DNA of 64,000 bases, from assembly GCF_015711645.1 (NCBI RefSeq), contig NZ_JABTEX010000002.1:1426001-1490000 (forward strand), written 5' to 3'. Within the stretch, counting starts at the first letter, position 1. Every line of letters begins with the position of its first letter. Made by a program: the position numbers and the translations under genes. The notes beneath the pieces are model-generated. The model was not told the origin of the DNA and searched no databases. It saw nothing but the letters and a program-made list of their open reading frames with translations. This DNA comes from Planomonospora sp. ID82291 (GTDB lineage: Bacteria; Actinomycetota; Actinomycetes; Streptosporangiales; Streptosporangiaceae). Shown here one piece after another: positions 47,539 through 53,978 of the stretch.

Positions 47539-47643
47539 GGTCGTGTGCGGAACCGGAGGCCGAGACCGAGCAAGGCTTTTGCGGCTGCATTGAGTAGATT
47601 TGCCACTTCGGGGTAGCCGGACCCCGTGAGAGGTGGCGGCGGG

Positions 47644-48315
47644 ATGCGGGCAGGACTGGGCCGGAGCGCGGCGGTCGCGGCGGTCGTGTTGGCGCTGGCG
47701 GGCTGCGGGCCCGCCGGGGAGACCCTCGGCGACCCGGCCCCGGCCGGAGGCGGGAAGCCGGCCTCCGAGGCCCTGGCGGACCTGAAGAAGCTCGAGGTCA
47801 AGGGCCGCGCCCCGATGACCGGCTTCGACCGGGGGGAGTTCGGACCCGCGTGGGCGGACGTCGACCACAACGGGTGCGACACCCGCAACGACATCCTCAA
47901 GCGCGACCTCGAAGGGGAGACCTTCAAGAAGGGCACCCAGGACTGCATCGTGCTCACCGGCACCCTCCGCGACCCCTACAGCGGGAAGACCATCGCGTTC
48001 GAGCGCGGGCAGAAGACCAGCATGGCGGTGCAGATCGACCACGTGGTCGCGCTCGCCGACGCCTGGCAGAAGGGGGCGCGGCAGCTGAGCAAGGAGGAGC
48101 GCCGGCAGCTGGCCAACGACCCGCTGAACCTGCTGGCGGTGGACGGCCCGTTGAACGGCCAGAAGAGCGCGGCGGACGCGGCGACCTGGTTGCCGCCGCG
48201 CCGCGCCTACCGGTGCCCCTACGTCACCCGCCAGATCCAGGTGAAGGCCAAGTACGGCCTCTGGGTGACCACCGCGGAGAAGGAGGCGATGGAGCGGGTG
48301 CTGAAGTCCTGCTGA
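47644..48315 (+). CDS. Secreted HNH nuclease family lipoprotein (DUF1524-like)
   Basis: 223 residues from the ATG at 47644 with AGGTGG about 7 nt upstream; a GTG at 47626 would add six. Lipoprotein signal ending LALAGC (Cys24). QIDHVVALADAWQKGA, NDPLNLLAVDGPLNGQKSAAD and the flanking WLPP are the catalytic and metal region of the actinobacterial exported HNH family. Two Cys pairs suggest disulphides. Probably an extracellular nuclease for nucleotide scavenging. Confidence 0.9.
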   Translation: MRAGLGRSAAVAAVVLALAGCGPAGETLGDPAPAGGGKPASEALADLKKLEVKGRAPMTGFDRGEFGPAWADVDHNGCDTRNDILKRDLEGETFKKGTQDCIVLTGTLRDPYSGKTIAFERGQKTSMAVQIDHVVALADAWQKGARQLSKEERRQLANDPLNLLAVDGPLNGQKSAADAATWLPPRRAYRCPYVTRQIQVKAKYGLWVTTAEKEAMERVLKSC

Positions 48316-48339
48316 CCTCCGGCACCCGCCGGCCCGCCG

Positions 48340-48684
48340 TCAGTCGTCCCACTCCCGCTTGAACTTGACGATCTTCCCGGTCCGCAGGGAGACGTAGACG
48401 TCGTACTCCCAGCGGCCCTTCTCCAGCTCCACCTTGCAGACGCGGTGGCCGTGCTCCCGCTCCCGCTCCACCTCGCTGACGCGGGCGCCGGGGACGCGCT
48501 TCTTCGCGATCTCGACGGCCTTGGCGCACGAGACGGGCGCGGCGGGGGCGGTGGACGTGGCCGTCCCGGCGGCGGGGGCGGCGCCTCCGCCCGAGGCGAG
48601 GGCGGCGGTTCCGCCGGCGCCCATCAGGGCGGCGGTTCCGGCGACGGCGAGTGCGATCTTGACGATCAGGTGTGTCTTCTTCAT
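48340..48684 (-). CDS. Exported PepSY-domain protein
   Basis: 114 residues. Signal peptide MKKTHLIVKIALAVAGTAAL with cleavage near ALA-SGGG, then an Ala/Thr linker and one PepSY domain (SCAKAVEIAKKRVPGARVSEVE, WEYDVYVSLRTGKIVKFKREW). Two Cys may pair. GGAG lies 2 nt from the ATG, closer than ideal. Downstream of the sensor kinase on the same strand and preceded by a direct-repeat box shared with the RR region, so it is a likely target of that system. Paralogue at 51396. Confidence 0.87.
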   Translation of the reverse strand: MKKTHLIVKIALAVAGTAALMGAGGTAALASGGGAAPAAGTATSTAPAAPVSCAKAVEIAKKRVPGARVSEVEREREHGHRVCKVELEKGRWEYDVYVSLRTGKIVKFKREWDD

Positions 48685-48718
48685 GGCTCCAGGTTTCCGC
48701 GGTCTCGGATAGGGCCGC

Positions 48719-48735
48719 GTTAAGAACCGGCTAAG
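48719..48735. promoter_or_regulatory. OmpR-type direct repeat upstream of PepSY gene
   Basis: GTTAAG (48719-48724) and GCTAAG (48730-48735) are spaced 11 bp apart. On the PepSY strand this reads CTTAGC-N5-CTTAAC, ending 34 nt before the ATG. It overlaps the stop codon of the sensor kinase gene. The same pair of half-sites with the same spacing occurs at 50874-50890. Confidence 0.6.
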
Positions 48736-50144
48736 GGTCCGCCTCCGGTTGAGAACGCCGGACCCGCCGGACCCGGCGGACCCGGCGTTCCCTGCGGACC
48801 CGCCGGATCCGCAGGGAACGCCGGGGACGCCAGGAACAGGGTGACGCTCGCGCCGCCCGCGGGGGACGCGCCGAGGGTGAGCGCGCCGCCGGACGACTCG
48901 GCGGTGCGGCGCGCGATGTCCAGCCCCAGGCCGGTCGACCCGGCCCCGCTCCGGCCGCGGCCCAGGGGGTCGGCCGTGCCGAACCCCGGTCCGGCGTCGT
49001 CGACGGTCAGCAGGGCGCCGCCCGGGACCGGCGCCAGCCGTACGCCGAAGGGGGCCTCCTCGTCGGTGTGCGCGAACACGTTGCCGAGCAGGGCGTCCAC
49101 GCAGGCGGCCAGGTCGCCGGGGGAGACCGCGACGGGGAGCGGGCCGGGACACAGATCCAGGTCCACGGCCCGGCCCTGGTCCTCGGCGAGCACCGACCAG
49201 AACGCCACCCGGTCCCCGACCACCGCGACCGCGTCGCACTCCGCGCGGTCGCGCGACCGCCGCCGGGCCTCGTCGATCACCGCGGTGACCGCCCGTTCCA
49301 GCGCGTCCACCCGGGCCTCGATCCTGGCCGCCTCGTCCGGGTCGGCGAGGGACTCGGCCTCCAGCCGCAGGCCGGTGAGCGGCGTGCGCAGCCGGTGGGA
49401 CAGGTCGGCCGCGTTCTCCCGCTCCTCGGCCAGCAGGCCGGTGATGCGCTCGGCGAGGTGGTTGAGCGCGCGGCCGACCGCACGGACCTCGGGAGGGCCG
49501 CCGGGGACGGTCCGGGCGGCGAGGTCGCCGGCGGCGAGCCGGTGGGACACCCCCGCCAGCGACGAGACCGGCCGGGTCATCGCGCGGGCCAGCCGGTCGG
49601 CGACCAGCATGCCCAGGCCGACCAGCGCCAGTCCGAGCACCAGCAGCCCCGCCTGCACCCGGGCGACGCCCGCGGTCAGCTCGTCGTCGCTGAGGAGGAC
49701 CCGGACCACCGCCGTGCCGCCCGGCGCCCCCTGGACCGCGACCAGGATCTCCCGGCCGCCCGGGACCGAGGCGGTGACGCTGCGCCCCCGGGCGGCCAGC
49801 GCGACGGCGGCGGACCTCTCCGCGGGGGCGCCGAGGACCCGGCCGTCGCCGAGGAAGACCGTGGTCGGGTGCGCGGCCCGTTCCGCGGTCAGATGCAGGG
49901 TCTCCGCGTCCACCGTGTCCACCGTGTCCAGCGCGCCCTGTGCGCCCCCTGCGTCCCCTGGGCCCCCTGCTCGTGCGGCGCCCGCCGTGCCGACGGCGAC
50001 GGCCATCGACTCGGCCTCGCCGCTCGCGCGGGCCACGGCGGCGCTCTCGGCGGCCGTCCGCACCAGCAGCAGGAGCGGGACCAGCAGGGCGATGAGGACG
50101 AGCGAGGTGGTCGCGGCCACCAGCAGCGCCAGCCAGCGCCTCAC
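48720..50144 (-). CDS. Two-component sensor histidine kinase
   Basis: 474 residues from the GTG at 50144, which overlaps the regulator stop. Two membrane helices (about 5-28 and 170-190) flank an extracellular domain of about 140 residues; HAMP domain to about 245; phospho-acceptor His in DLSHRLRTPLTGLRLEAESL near 265; N box NVFAHTDEEAPFG; DDAGPGFG and STGLGLDIARR of the ATPase domain. The tail is Pro/Gly-rich. Works with the regulator encoded upstream; the signal is probably envelope-related given the PepSY partners. Confidence 0.93.
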   Translation of the reverse strand: MRRWLALLVAATTSLVLIALLVPLLLLVRTAAESAAVARASGEAESMAVAVGTAGAARAGGPGDAGGAQGALDTVDTVDAETLHLTAERAAHPTTVFLGDGRVLGAPAERSAAVALAARGRSVTASVPGGREILVAVQGAPGGTAVVRVLLSDDELTAGVARVQAGLLVLGLALVGLGMLVADRLARAMTRPVSSLAGVSHRLAAGDLAARTVPGGPPEVRAVGRALNHLAERITGLLAEERENAADLSHRLRTPLTGLRLEAESLADPDEAARIEARVDALERAVTAVIDEARRRSRDRAECDAVAVVGDRVAFWSVLAEDQGRAVDLDLCPGPLPVAVSPGDLAACVDALLGNVFAHTDEEAPFGVRLAPVPGGALLTVDDAGPGFGTADPLGRGRSGAGSTGLGLDIARRTAESSGGALTLGASPAGGASVTLFLASPAFPADPAGPQGTPGPPGPAGPAFSTGGGPLAGS

Positions 50145-50821
50145 GACGGCGCGGCCAGCCGTACGCCCACGCCGCGCACGGTCTGCAGGTAGCGGGGCTC
50201 GGCCGACGTCTCGCCCAGTTTGCGGCGGAGCCACGACAGGTGGACGTCGACGGTCTTGTCCGCCCCGCCGTACGGGACCTGCCAGACGTGGGTGAGCAGC
50301 TCGCGCTTGGTGACCACCTCACCCGGACGGGCCGCGAGGTAGTGGAGCAGGTCGAACTCCCGGGGGCTGAGGTCCAGCGGTGCGCCGTCCAGGGTCGCCT
50401 CGCGGGTGCGCGGATCCATCCGCAGCCCGCCGACCGTCACCGAGCCGTCCGCACGGCTCTCGCCCGACCGCCGGAGCACCGCCCGGATCCGGGCGTCCAG
50501 CTGGGTCGCGGTGAACGGCTTGACCACGTAGTCGTCGGCGCCCGCGTCCAGCAGCCTGACCATCTCCGCGTCGCCGTCCCGGGCGGTGGCGACGATCACC
50601 GGGACGCGGCTGACCGCGCGCAGCATGCGCAGCAGGTCCAGGCCGTCGAGGTCGGGAAGGCCCAGGTCGAGCACGATGAGGTCGGGACGCTCCTCGACGG
50701 CCAGGCGGAGGCCGTCCAGGGCGGCGGGGGCGGACAGCACGGCGTGGCCGCGATCCCGCAACCCCCGGGTGAGGGAGGTGCGGATCTGGGCGTCGTCCTC
50801 GATGAGCAGTACGTTCGGCAT
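50141..50821 (-). CDS. OmpR family response regulator
   Basis: 226 residues. Receiver domain with the acidic pair in IEDD, phospho-acceptor Asp in LDLGLPDLDG (about residue 52), Thr in ATARDG and Lys in VVKPF. Winged-helix DNA-binding domain ending KTVDVHLSWLRRKLGE and LQTVRGVGVRL. First gene of the regulator-kinase operon. Binds tandem half-sites in this family, matching the 11-bp direct repeats at 50874-50890 and 48719-48735. Confidence 0.95.
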   Translation of the reverse strand: MPNVLLIEDDAQIRTSLTRGLRDRGHAVLSAPAALDGLRLAVEERPDLIVLDLGLPDLDGLDLLRMLRAVSRVPVIVATARDGDAEMVRLLDAGADDYVVKPFTATQLDARIRAVLRRSGESRADGSVTVGGLRMDPRTREATLDGAPLDLSPREFDLLHYLAARPGEVVTKRELLTHVWQVPYGGADKTVDVHLSWLRRKLGETSAEPRYLQTVRGVGVRLAAPS

Positions 50822-50873
50822 CGGCCGTCACGTTAGCCGGGCCGGAGCAGTGCCGGAACCGCGTTATCGGTCC

Positions 50874-50890
50874 CTTAACCATGCCTTAGC
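50874..50890. promoter_or_regulatory. OmpR-type direct repeat in RR/secreted-protein gap
   Basis: CTTAAC (50874-50879) and CTTAGC (50885-50890) are 11 bp apart, in the gap between the response regulator gene and the divergent secreted-protein gene, whose ATG follows after 34 nt. A weaker TTATC half-site precedes it at 50863. Confidence 0.6.
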
Positions 50891-50924
50891 GCCGGAGGCC
50901 GCACGAGGATGGGAAGGTGGGGGA

Positions 50925-51389
50925 ATGCGTAGAAGGCTCCCACTCGTCCTGGCCGGATGGCTGGTCACCGGCGTCCTCGCGACCGGGACGGGGGTGGCGG
51001 CGATCACCTTTCTCGGCGAGCCGCTGACCGCCTCCGCGCACCGTCCGCTCTCCTCCGCCGAGGTCGAGGAGGCGCTCGCCCGCGCCCTCCCGCCGGAGGC
51101 GGTGCCGTCGGCCGCGGCCGGCCCGGCCGATCCCGCGCCTTCGGCCACAGGGCGGGCGGAGGGCCGGAGCCGGACGATCACCACGGCGGGCGGGAACGTG
51201 ATCGCCCGGTGCGACGGGGGCGTCGCGGTGCTGCGGACGTGGAGCCCTGCCCAGGGCTTCCGGGTGGACGATGTGGAGCGCGGCCCCGCCGCCCGGGCGC
51301 GTGTCGAGTTCGAGTCGGACGAGGCCGACGTCAAGGTCGAGGTGCGCTGCGGGGCCGACGGCCTGCCGGTCCATCGCGTGCACGACTGA
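50925..51389 (+). CDS. Exported protein of unknown function
   Basis: 154 residues. Starts at an ATG preceded by GGTGGGGGA. An N-terminal hydrophobic segment (about 5-30) serves as signal or anchor, then an Ala/Pro linker and a small domain of about 70 residues (SRTITTAGGNVIARCDGGVAVLRTWSPAQGFRVDDVERG) with two Cys. Family not recognised. Divergent from the response regulator and next to its presumed binding site, so it is a likely member of that regulon. Confidence 0.8.
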   Translation: MRRRLPLVLAGWLVTGVLATGTGVAAITFLGEPLTASAHRPLSSAEVEEALARALPPEAVPSAAAGPADPAPSATGRAEGRSRTITTAGGNVIARCDGGVAVLRTWSPAQGFRVDDVERGPAARARVEFESDEADVKVEVRCGADGLPVHRVHD

Positions 51390-51395
51390 CGGCGG

Positions 51396-51797
51396 TCAGC
51401 GGCCGTAGTCGATTTTCAATCTGACGACCCTGCCGCTCCTGACCGAGACGAAGAGGTCGTACCTCCACGGGGCCTTCACCAGTTCGACCCGCCAGTTCCA
51501 GATGCCCTGGTCCCACACGTGCCTGACCCGGGTGACCCGGGCGCCGGGGACCTTCCTCCTGGCGATCTCCGCGGCCTGCCGTGAGGAGACGCCCGCCGCG
51601 GCGGGCGAGGCGGCACCGGTCGCGGCCGTGACGGCTGTGCCGTTCGTGACGGCTGTGGCGCTCGTAGCGGCTGCGCCGCTCGTGACGGCTGTGCCGCTCG
51701 TGGCGCTCGTCGCGGAGGCGCCACCGCCGGAGGAGAGGAGGGCGGCGGTCCCGGCGGCGGTGAGGGCGATCCTGGTGAACATGCTGCGCTGTCTCAT
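51396..51797 (-). CDS. Exported PepSY-domain protein, paralogue
   Basis: 133 residues. Signal peptide at 1-29, then a Ser/Thr/Ala-rich stretch built of ATSATAVTNGTAV-like units (about 30-65), then a PepSY domain (SRQAAEIARRKVPGARVTRVRHVWDQG, WRYDLFVSVRSGRVVRLKIDYGR) closely like that encoded at 48340. Lacks the Cys pair of its paralogue. An 11-bp repeat of CTTCG around TTAAAA lies about 44 nt upstream. Converges with the secreted protein gene, 6 nt between stops. Confidence 0.85.
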   Translation of the reverse strand: MRQRSMFTRIALTAAGTAALLSSGGGASATSATSGTAVTSGAAATSATAVTNGTAVTAATGAASPAAAGVSSRQAAEIARRKVPGARVTRVRHVWDQGIWNWRVELVKAPWRYDLFVSVRSGRVVRLKIDYGR

Positions 51798-51884
51798 GGA
51801 TCGTGCCTTCCCGGCCGGCGGTGCGGGGCCTCGGGGTCTTCGTTAAAACTTCGGCGGAGACGCCGGACCGCCTCCGTCGGGTTC

Positions 51885-51925
51885 CGCGGTCCCGCCCGCC
51901 GGAGGGTCCGGCGGGCGGGACCGCG
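51885..51925 (-). terminator. 19-bp-stem hairpin after the ECF operon
   Basis: CGCGGTCCCGCCCGCCGGA (51885-51903) pairs perfectly with 51907-51925 around GGG, about 49 nt beyond the stop of the CU044_5270-like gene. No T run. Confidence 0.88.
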
Positions 51926-51973
51926 ATCACCCGGCGCGATGATGGCCTCCGTACGCGCCGGGCGAGTCCCGGA

Positions 51974-53035
51974 TCAGCCGCAGCCGGCGGTCTCCTCCTC
52001 GACCCGGGGTGCCTCGTCGACCACCGTGACCGAGAGCTGCGCGGTGGAGGCGACGAGACTGCCCGCGGGGGACCGGGCCCGCTTCCCGTCCACGACGATG
52101 CCGCGCTCGCCCAGGAACTCGAAGGTCTCCGGGTGGAAGACGAGGTCCTCGCGGACGCCGTCCGGGCCGACCCGGCCCACCCCGACGCCCTTGCGGCCCG
52201 CGGCGTCCTCGGCGTCGCCGACGGCGTCCACCCCGGGGATCGTCGCCGCCGCCTCGAACAGCGCGGCCCGCTGCGCGGCGGGCACGTAGTTCTCGCGGAG
52301 CAGGTCGCCCACCCGCGTCCACGCGGCCGCGTCCCGGGAGTCGCCGCCCCGGTCCCCGGTGTAGAGGTGGGCGCGCATCCCCTCGGCGTCGGCCGGCAGT
52401 CGCCTGACCGCCGCGTGGTCGGTGCGCAGGTGGCCGGGGACCGGTCCGCAGACCGGGAGCCGGTGCAGGTCGACGGTGCCGGCCTCCCGGTAGGCGCTCT
52501 CCGGGATCGGCCAGCCGGGGTAGGCCTTCGGCTCCAGGTGCTCGATCCGGAGCGAGCCCTCCCTGGTCCCGTCGGCGGACTGCCAGATCACCCGCCTGGT
52601 CCGGTAGAGGTGGCGCGACTCCTCACCCTCACCCTCACCGGCGACGGTGAACGCGCCGTACATGGTCTCCGACTCGACCTTGACGAACTGGTCGTCGCGC
52701 GGGTCCAGATCGGTCCGGGAGGCGGCCCGCGCGGCCCTGCCCAGCACCTCGCTCGCCGACATGGGAGCGAGCCGCGGCAGCGCCACCACGACCTCCTGCG
52801 CGGGGCCGCGCTCCGGGCCCGTACCGCCGGTCAGCACGGTGGCGCCCACCGCCACCGCCACCGCCAGCGCTCCGGCCGGCAGCATCACCCAGGGCCTGCG
52901 CCACAGCGAGCGCCCGGGTGGGCGTCCGGCGGACGCCGCGGCCAGCCCCCGCCGGGCCGCGGCCTTCGCCTCCGGGTCGTACGGCGCCGCGTCCGGCCGG
53001 ATGCGGGCCACCAGTCGGATCTCGTCCTCGTTCAT
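51974..53035 (-). CDS. CU044_5270-like membrane protein
   Basis: 353 residues. MNEDEIRLVARIRPDAAPYDPEAKAAARRGL, one membrane helix (about 50-70), then a large extracellular domain with HLEPKAYPGWPIP and a final beta-rich part. This layout is that of the actinobacterial CU044_5270 family, which is regularly encoded next to ECF sigma factors. The ATG overlaps the sigma gene stop. It may act as a membrane-bound partner of the sigma factor; that is inference from position. Confidence 0.85.
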   Translation of the reverse strand: MNEDEIRLVARIRPDAAPYDPEAKAAARRGLAAASAGRPPGRSLWRRPWVMLPAGALAVAVAVGATVLTGGTGPERGPAQEVVVALPRLAPMSASEVLGRAARAASRTDLDPRDDQFVKVESETMYGAFTVAGEGEGEESRHLYRTRRVIWQSADGTREGSLRIEHLEPKAYPGWPIPESAYREAGTVDLHRLPVCGPVPGHLRTDHAAVRRLPADAEGMRAHLYTGDRGGDSRDAAAWTRVGDLLRENYVPAAQRAALFEAAATIPGVDAVGDAEDAAGRKGVGVGRVGPDGVREDLVFHPETFEFLGERGIVVDGKRARSPAGSLVASTAQLSVTVVDEAPRVEEETAGCG

Positions 53036-53688
53036 GCGTGCGACTCCAGGGAATCCAGGGAATCCGGTGAATCCAGGGAACGGCGGATCTTGGCCCGGGT
53101 GCGGGAGAGCCGTGAGCGCACGGTCCCGACCGGGATGCCGAGGGCCTCGGCGGCCTCCTCGTAGGTCAGATCGGCCCAGGCCACCAGCAGCAGCAGGTCG
53201 CGTTCGGCGGAGCTCAGCCGGGCCAGCGCGGCGGCCAGGACGGGCCGGAGCCGGTCGGCGGTCACCCGTTCCGCGCTGCGCTCCTCGAAACCGGCCGCCC
53301 GGTCCGGGGCGTGCCGGAAGGAGCGGGCGAGCGCCTTGAGCCTGCGGGTCTCGGCCCTGCGGTGGCCGGAGATCAGGTTCGAGGCGATGCCGTACAGCCA
53401 GGGCCGGGCGTCGGCCCTGGACAGGTCGTACCGGGCGCGTTTGCGGAAGGCCACCAGGAACGTCTCCGCGGTCACGTCGTCGGCCATGGAGACGTCGTCC
53501 AGCCGCCGGGCGGCGTACCGGTGGATCTCGTCGGAATGCCGGTCGAAGAGCCCGGCGAACCCGTCGGGGTCGGTCAGCGACCCCTCGATCAGCGCCGCGT
53601 CGGAAGCGGGGCCGCCGGGCCCGCCGGATCCGGAGCCGCCGGAGAGAGGGACGGGTGTTCCGGCCCGCTGGAAGAGCGCCAGCGCCAT
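53032..53688 (-). CDS. ECF family RNA polymerase sigma factor
   Basis: 218 residues from the ATG at 53688 (MALALFQRAGT); upstream starts in the same frame lack ribosome sites. Region 2: FAGLFDRHSDEIHRYAARRL and DVTAETFLVAFRKRARYD; region 4: LLLVAWADLTYEEAAEALGIPVGTVRSRLSRTRAKIRRSL. No anti-sigma zinc protein is adjacent; the CU044_5270-like gene overlaps its stop and may take that role. Ends in SLDSPDSLDSLESHA, a small repeated tail. Confidence 0.93.
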   Translation of the reverse strand: MALALFQRAGTPVPLSGGSGSGGPGGPASDAALIEGSLTDPDGFAGLFDRHSDEIHRYAARRLDDVSMADDVTAETFLVAFRKRARYDLSRADARPWLYGIASNLISGHRRAETRRLKALARSFRHAPDRAAGFEERSAERVTADRLRPVLAAALARLSSAERDLLLLVAWADLTYEEAAEALGIPVGTVRSRLSRTRAKIRRSLDSPDSLDSLESHA

Positions 53689-53978
53689 CACCCGTTTCGT
53701 CCAGTCATCGTGAAGGGGTCCTTTCCCGGGGCGCGTCTGCGCCCTCACCCCCTACTCCGCCACCGGACGCTATCCGGTTCCCGGAATGTCACCGCCGCCC
53801 GGAGGACGGGAGCAATAGGATCCGATGCAGGTAAAGCAGGCATAAAGGAAATGCTGATGGGCGCGGGGAAGGCCGGCGGGGGACGGCGGGCCACGGTGGA
53901 CGCACGCCCGAGGACCCCGGGAGCGGAGCGGAGGAACCCGCGGACGGGCCGCTCCTCGACAGGCGGAGGATCGAGGAG

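Follow-up and report, generated by a model that had tools for sequence, protein, structure and literature searches.

A predicted operator of phased 11-bp direct repeats at an actinobacterial two-component locus encoding a PepSY protein and an uncharacterised exported protein

Paired CTTARC hexamers occur upstream of two genes that flank a two-component system of Planomonospora sp. ID82291, and the question that they raise is which protein reads them and with what effect. The window, i.e., the whole stretch of DNA that was analysed (64,000 nt), carries on its minus strand a regulator, a kinase, and PepSY1, in that order, and a divergent gene, SEC, on its plus strand (Table 1). The regulator combines a receiver domain (PF00072, E 6.7e-26) with a Trans_reg_C winged helix (PF00486, E 1.7e-25), and its stop codon overlaps the kinase start, read by eye as GTG, in the form GTGA. 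PepSY1, with a hydrophobic segment seen by eye at the N-terminus of its translation, is encoded directly downstream of the kinase, and a small secreted PepSY-only protein thus stands beside kinase and regulator. PepSY1 matches were found in 36 of 80 named loci, one of them a few kilobases away and on the other strand.

Table 1. Genes, predicted operator arrays, and proposed promoter elements of the locus (window coordinates).
Feature	Position	Strand	Basis or remark
PepSY1, secreted 114-aa single-domain PepSY protein	48340..48684	-	Pfam PF03413, E 2.1e-11, residues 54-107
Proposed PepSY1 -10, AAACCT	48691..48696	-	11 nt after last half-site, 6 nt before ATG
Predicted PepSY1 operator array, CTTAGC-N5-CTTAAC-N5-CCTATC	48708..48735	-	sequence; similar arrays in relatives
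Kinase stop TAA	48720..48722	-	inside middle half-site CTTAAC (48719-48724)
Sensor histidine kinase	48720..50144	-	HAMP, HisKA, HATPase_c (Pfam)
OmpR/PhoB-family response regulator	50141..50821	-	Response_reg and Trans_reg_C; relatives
Proposed -10 of regulator-kinase operon, TAACGT	50830..50835	-	8 nt before ATG
Predicted divergent-region operator array, GTTATC-N5-CTTAAC-N5-CTTAGC	50863..50890	+	27 nt from regulator's proposed -10
Proposed SEC -10, GAAGGT	50913..50918	+	22 nt after array, 6 nt before ATG
SEC, exported, membrane-anchored, 154 aa, uncharacterised family	50925..51389	+	alignment, structure model
PepSY2, small PepSY-like protein beyond SEC	51396..51797	-	Pfam PepSY E 0.0011, 19.7 bits vs cut-off 24
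Single half-site TTTAAC	51842-51847	-	44 nt before PepSY2 ATG

The original prediction placed CTTARC boxes 11 bp apart upstream of PepSY1 and SEC, and both pairs were located. CTTAGC-N5-CTTAAC (48735..48719, minus strand) has its 3' end 34 nt before the PepSY1 ATG (48684), and CTTAAC-N5-CTTAGC (50874..50890, plus strand) ends 34 nt before the SEC ATG (50925). The geometry had been called identical at the two genes; the 11-bp spacing is real, but the two pairs are different registers within three-box 11-bp arrays. At PepSY1 the third half-site, CCTATC (48708-48713), follows the pair and ends 23 nt before the ATG, and at SEC the third half-site, GTTATC (50863-50868), precedes it. Similarly, the distance of exactly 34 nt was measured at both genes but is not supported as a shared rule: the SEC array lies 23-25 nt from the start in most relatives, including all of the 17 SEC rows that were picked by hand after a wider SEC comparison. 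Exceptions were found at 35 nt (L034 and L038), 134 nt (L035), and 263 nt (L061), and in Micromonospora loci the last clear half-site is more distant again, as in L107, where CTTAGC ends 45 nt before the start. In the window, array and -10 of SEC are separated by an additional 11 bases, or one helical turn (+11 variant). The shared 34 nt is therefore partly a coincidence, because it is counted from the middle half-site at PepSY1 and from the +11 variant at SEC. In the divergent region of L061 (G087), two copies of the array, 63 bp from each other, precede the secreted gene, which resembles the outcome of a tandem duplication.

In the whole genome (7,576,605 bases, 15 contigs), CTTARC-N5-CTTARC had exactly two exact matches, and the scan proposed at the outset thus returned only the sites beside this regulator. 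The reversed control pattern likewise had two, and raw rarity of the motif therefore proves nothing; what is exceptional is that a single regulator has both sites within 2.2 kb and that their positions are conserved. The three-box pattern, with up to 3 mismatches of 18, was confined to the same two places, vs. 4 matches of its control. A larger regulon in the source genome was rejected, since the pair motif with two mismatches gave 170 matches vs. 384 for the reversed control and therefore no excess. With one mismatch, nine matches were obtained. Six of them share a single sequence, CTTAGCACACGCTTAGG; five of the six lie about 2.1-2.2 kb from copies of a sequence that we take to be 5S-rRNA-like, and the copies were for this reason taken to belong to rRNA operons. 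Another one-mismatch match (L150) presumably resembles an iron-box region, and two others (L151 and L152) were rejected as targets because no clearly fitting -10 was found. The layout half-site-N11-NANNNT-N6-RTG had 8 matches in the genome vs. 2 for the control, and six of the 8 belonged to the 5S-like sequence.

The exact pair was also scanned in 297 family genomes; the lists used covered 150 motif places and, of the 135 genomes in which the regulator had a match, 130. Among the 150 places listed, 84 were in genomes with a listed regulator relative (E <= 1e-85, which takes in orthologs and close paralogs), and 67 of these 84 were at the regulator's locus, compared with about 0.05% by chance. 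Upstream of the regulator lay 54 of the 67 listed places, all pointing away from it. The 13 listed downstream places comprised 12 at the PepSY position (approximately 1.9-2.1 kb from the regulator start, on its own strand) and one at 3.5 kb from that start on the other strand. The pair motif alone is not specific, because 66 of the 150 listed places were in genomes without a listed relative; the reversed control was, genome by genome (columns not summed), of the same order as the motif in the 297-genome scan.

A slightly looser form of the triple pattern, with two mismatches allowed, was found at 87 places in 61 of 120 family genomes, and the share within 3.5 kb of a regulator relative was 21 of 21 for perfect arrays, 17 of 19 for arrays with one mismatch, and 18 of 47 for those with two. 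Twenty of the 21 perfect arrays were beside regulators with 78-100% identity, and one (G111) was beside a relative with 70% identity. Of 25 aligned regulators, 19 have the same recognition-helix stretch, DKTVDVHLSWLRRKLGE, and the other 6 depart from it at one or two letters. Neither these conservation counts nor the promoter counts below represent independent events, because the genomes share ancestry and the named set partly repeats the unnamed one. Judging from the sequences compared, the layout appears to be kept across many actinobacteria.

Phasing of the half-sites to the promoters was assessed at SEC using 65 promoters chosen without regard to boxes, namely that of the window and those of 64 homologs in named genomes. 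The SEC -10 was selected on its own sequence and its distance to the start codon, independently of the boxes, and in four loci (L078, L079, L080, and L082) the start codon was moved to a downstream in-frame start. Half-sites (126 in total) ended at distances of 23-25, 34-36, 45-48, and 56-57 nt from the start codon in 31, 27, 38, and 18 cases, respectively, and at most once at any other distance, where about 1.4 per distance was expected from the other strand. NANNNT was found 5-9 nt before the start in 50 of the 65 promoters (GATAGT or CATAGT in 14 of the 50) and was not in place in 15. Half-sites ended 11 (29 cases), 22 (26), 33 (33), and 44 (17) nt upstream of it, with at most one at other distances. 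A plain example is CTTATC-N11-CATAGT-N7-ATG in two Streptomyces loci (L100 and L106).

At the PepSY site, half-site spacings in 32 loci were 11 (31), 22 (20), and 33 (13) nt, with at most one of any other length, and a half-site stood 11 nt before GANYCT in 16 loci. The N11-hexamer layout of this side was compared in 56 of the 80 named loci, 14 of which share the N11-hexamer-N6-ATG layout of the PepSY1 promoter in the window; in several PepSY promoters of Nonomuraea the hexamer, for example TTTCGT, lacks the A at position 2. On the regulator side, 78 of 81 loci carry TANNNT 3-15 nt upstream of the start, and half-sites in these 78 promoters lay 26-28, 37-39, 48-50, and 59-61 nt away from that element (40, 45, 32, and 22, respectively), with 21 elsewhere. 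One array is thus positioned exactly relative to both divergent promoters, because it is phased to the proposed -10 elements of SEC and of the regulator. The proposed -10 elements are 6-9 nt from the start codon, and from this we infer leaderless or nearly leaderless messages. In the window itself, the candidates GAAGGT and AAACCT are poor TANNNT matches, and the SEC spacing is 22 rather than 11; a consensus scan of 48300-52000, of a kind that fits actinobacterial promoters poorly, detected no sigma-70-type promoter. Random scatter of the motif with respect to start codons, named in the original prediction as the outcome that would count against it, is clearly not what was observed. The small regulon of the adjacent regulator that it proposed is supported by the perfect triple arrays in the 120 genomes, all of which are beside relatives of this regulator, and by their phasing to the -10 elements.

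The predicted PepSY1 operator also reaches into the kinase gene. The TTAA and TTAG cores of the half-sites contain TAA and TAG. Of the 34 loci (window included) in which a PepSY match follows the kinase, 23 have the kinase stop within a half-site, and 20 have a second half-site in 11-nt phase with it. A kinase stop within a half-site was also observed in 10 of 46 loci without a detected PepSY, a group that makes an imperfect control, since some divergent PepSY genes may have escaped detection. The looser 11-bp repeat that had been reported upstream of PepSY2 did not hold up: a single half-site, TTTAAC, is present without an 11-bp partner, and its distance of 44 nt misses the 11-nt phase (45) by one base. 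In two other loci (L069 and L071), TTTTTAGC lies 44 nt before the ATG, as counted by eye. Membership of PepSY2 in the regulon is unproven.

If the array belongs to the PepSY gene, it was predicted to move with that gene, and this held with exceptions. In G091 (L067) and G144 (L165), the PepSY gene is about 3-4 kb from the regulator, farther along the locus, and keeps its array; in L165 the PepSY match has E 7.1e-10 and the array lies 23 nt before the ATG. In G067 (L158), the array is on another contig, upstream of a weak PepSY match (E 0.019, under the cut-off). These places were picked from the motif list, from which 15 further places were fetched: three precede PepSY or PepSY-like genes (L158, L165, and L167), two precede DUF4956 genes, and the other 10 had no comparable gene. 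The DUF4956 membrane-protein gene of L160 follows an array and N11-TAGCGT about 3 kb from the two-component locus, and that of L159, in a second genus, follows the same arrangement on another contig. By sequence, DUF4956 is a possible extra target in two genera, and the regulon may therefore not be closed in some genera.

The same genome harbors a paralogous regulator with 69% identity (G000 contig 9, locus L052, 171871-179371) and the same recognition-helix stretch. Its kinase stop lies within CTTAAC-N5-GTTAGG, ahead of a PepSY gene (E 1.8e-10). No array was detected in the divergent region of the close-paralog loci L051, L052, and L053. Cross-talk between the paralog and this regulator is possible.

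Together, the comparisons argue strongly for the operator and its architecture, and it is very likely that the adjacent OmpR-family regulator binds the boxes. Quite probably, they serve as operators at which this regulator activates itself, the kinase, PepSY1, and SEC, with a possible feedback of the DbfQ type. The phosphorylated regulator would bind arrays of two to four CTTA(A/G/T)C half-sites in head-to-tail order, with a half-site every 11 bp. The array would replace the -35 element at the promoters of PepSY1 and SEC, the nearest box slot being 11 nt upstream of the -10 (22 nt at SEC of the window), and transcripts would begin at or near the start codon and be leaderless. In the opposite sense, the divergent-region array would immediately precede the -35 region of the operon for regulator and kinase and would mediate its autoregulation. 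Regulator, kinase, PepSY1, and SEC would then be induced together in a small, nearly closed circuit, in which exported PepSY1, perhaps with SEC, may feed back on the extracellular domain of the kinase, as DbfQ does on DbfS. A broader version is a tentative and rather doubtful proposal: a widespread, largely closed circuit in which phase-locked arrays drive leaderless transcription of two exported proteins that report to the kinase, the operator supplies the kinase stop and is shared with the PepSY promoter, and SEC represents a novel kinase co-sensor family.

Hexamers that are alike by accident or through coding constraint could in principle explain the boxes, as the reversed control is equally frequent in the genome (two exact matches) and the kinase gene ends within one of the pairs, but conservation over many genera, the 11-nt periodicity, the fixed promoter phase, and the array kept at displaced PepSY genes make this extremely improbable. 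Another regulator might read them instead, either the contig 9 paralog, alone or jointly, or the ECF sigma factor encoded at 53032-53748. The paralog shares the recognition-helix stretch and has its own box-like kinase end ahead of a PepSY gene, and the array of G111 is beside a regulator with an identity of only 70%; on the other hand, the remaining 20 perfect arrays are beside the closer regulators, and the arrays are phased to the regulator's own promoter, so that such a reading is improbable. ECF promoters are, to our knowledge, not 11-bp direct-repeat arrays, and this was counted against the sigma factor.

Repression, in which the arrays block polymerase, is somewhat less improbable but still unlikely. 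It would suit arrays that come within 11 nt of the -10, but the array occupies the place of the -35, as it does in PhoB/PmrA-type activation. The consensus scan between 48300 and 52000, ill-suited as it is to actinobacterial promoters, gave no sigma-70-type promoter, and strict 11-bp phasing to the -10 would fit contact with polymerase better than blocking. Activation is therefore the likely mode, judged from position and known families. What the exported proteins do is more evenly balanced. By analogy, a feedback role on the kinase has about an even chance, and a serious contender, a little short of that, is that PepSY1 and SEC are effectors that bind metal or respond to envelope stress in the manner of UipA. 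UipA, a uranyl-binding PepSY protein, is encoded beside a two-component system for which a role in sensing is unproven (PMC8963506); PepSY functions are described as diverse (PMC4282423). Against the effector role, DbfQ, which is similar to PepSY1 in size and layout, is reported to target the sensory domain of a kinase (PMC12714742), and this is not decisive.

The general type of system is known, both for PmrA-like boxes and for DbfQRS-type modules. Direct-repeat operators spaced about 10-11 bp beside the promoter that they serve are typical of OmpR/PhoB-family regulators, and the 11-nt arrays phased to -10-like elements agree with this. The solved structures related to this regulator include those of BasR, and the locus resembles PmrA (BasR)/PmrAB in having an OmpR-family regulator and hexamers 5 bp apart. 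We know of no PepSY or SEC partner in PmrAB. The PmrA box is given as CTTAAG-N5-XTTAAT, bound head to tail (PMC3973317), whereas the hexamers here end in AC, GC, or TC (CTTAAC, CTTAGC, and GTTATC) and occur in up to 3-4 boxes. The regulator was rejected as a PmrA ortholog (NCBIfam PmrA, 152.3 bits vs. a cut-off of 330), and it reached no NCBIfam cut-off among the best 25 of 104 rows. A tandem motif, TTAAG-N6-TTAAG, is ascribed to BqsR; no paper on it was found in the literature search. DbfQRS of Vibrio cholerae and BqsRS of Pseudomonas aeruginosa are alike in having a small secreted single-PepSY protein beside kinase and regulator, but here PepSY is downstream of the kinase with a proposed operator-driven promoter of its own, and a divergent SEC belongs to the unit. 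DbfQ is reported to be a small single-domain secreted PepSY protein that targets the sensory domain of the neighbouring kinase, and PepSY two-component modules occur in several phyla (PMC12714742). UipRS-UipA of Microbacterium likewise places an actinobacterial PepSY protein beside a two-component system, but UipA has tandem PepSY domains, which bind uranyl or iron, in one membrane-anchored protein (PMC8963506), whereas PepSY1 has one domain by Pfam. In Streptomyces coelicolor, SCO5403/5404 are the OmpR-family pair RapA1/RapA2 (PMC9739842), and SCO5402, numbered next to them, is a two-PepSY protein (PMC4282423); the likeness lies in an OmpR-family pair near a PepSY protein, the numbering suggests another gene order, and the case is a lead only.

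New are the actinobacterial layout, the uncharacterised secreted partner, and the kinase stop codon in the operator; in the titles and abstract openings searched, no description of this operator or of this actinobacterial module was found. An uncharacterised two-component family (Streptosporangiaceae, Micromonospora, Streptomyces, Actinoplanes, Jiangella, and others) thereby gains an exact predicted operator, three predicted promoters with their start sites, and a pair of exported partners, and each of these is open to direct test. The action of PepSY proteins beside sensor kinases is an open subject, to which the locus would add an actinobacterial example with a second, unnamed partner.

That partner, SEC, belongs to no Pfam family, and a search with 46 members gave scattered weak matches only. 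Two cysteines were invariant across the 46 aligned sequences (45 of the 64 homologs and SEC of the window). The structure model contains an N-terminal helix, a low-confidence linker, and a confident C-terminal beta domain (pLDDT 97-98). No Foldseek match at E <= 0.001 was obtained (best E 0.28), and the best VIA-align hit, 4k15 (Z 6.1, 3.3 A rmsd, 76 residues), is below the informative level of the tool. Assignment of a function through the fold was thus abandoned, as neither Foldseek nor VIA-align established a known fold.

Several recurring exact matches in relatives were set aside, namely L055-L058 and L063-L066, which are not beside this regulator, and L154-L157, which have no clear -10 at 11 nt. 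L154, L155, and L157 share CTTAGC-N5-CTTAAC in similar surroundings in two genera, also not beside this regulator. CTTAACGCGACCTTAAC-like sites recur across many species of a single genus (g67); L055-L057 represent them and resemble one another in their flanks. On the other strand the site reads as a GTTAAG pair, and it is probably the site of another regulator. Next to PepSY1 in the window, a putative secreted lipoprotein with an HNH-like stretch, QIDHVVALADAW, recognised by eye, is encoded at 47626-48315 (plus strand). On the other side, the module is adjoined at 51974-53748 (minus strand) by an ECF-type sigma factor gene and then a protein without a Pfam family, in which a hydrophobic segment was seen by eye.
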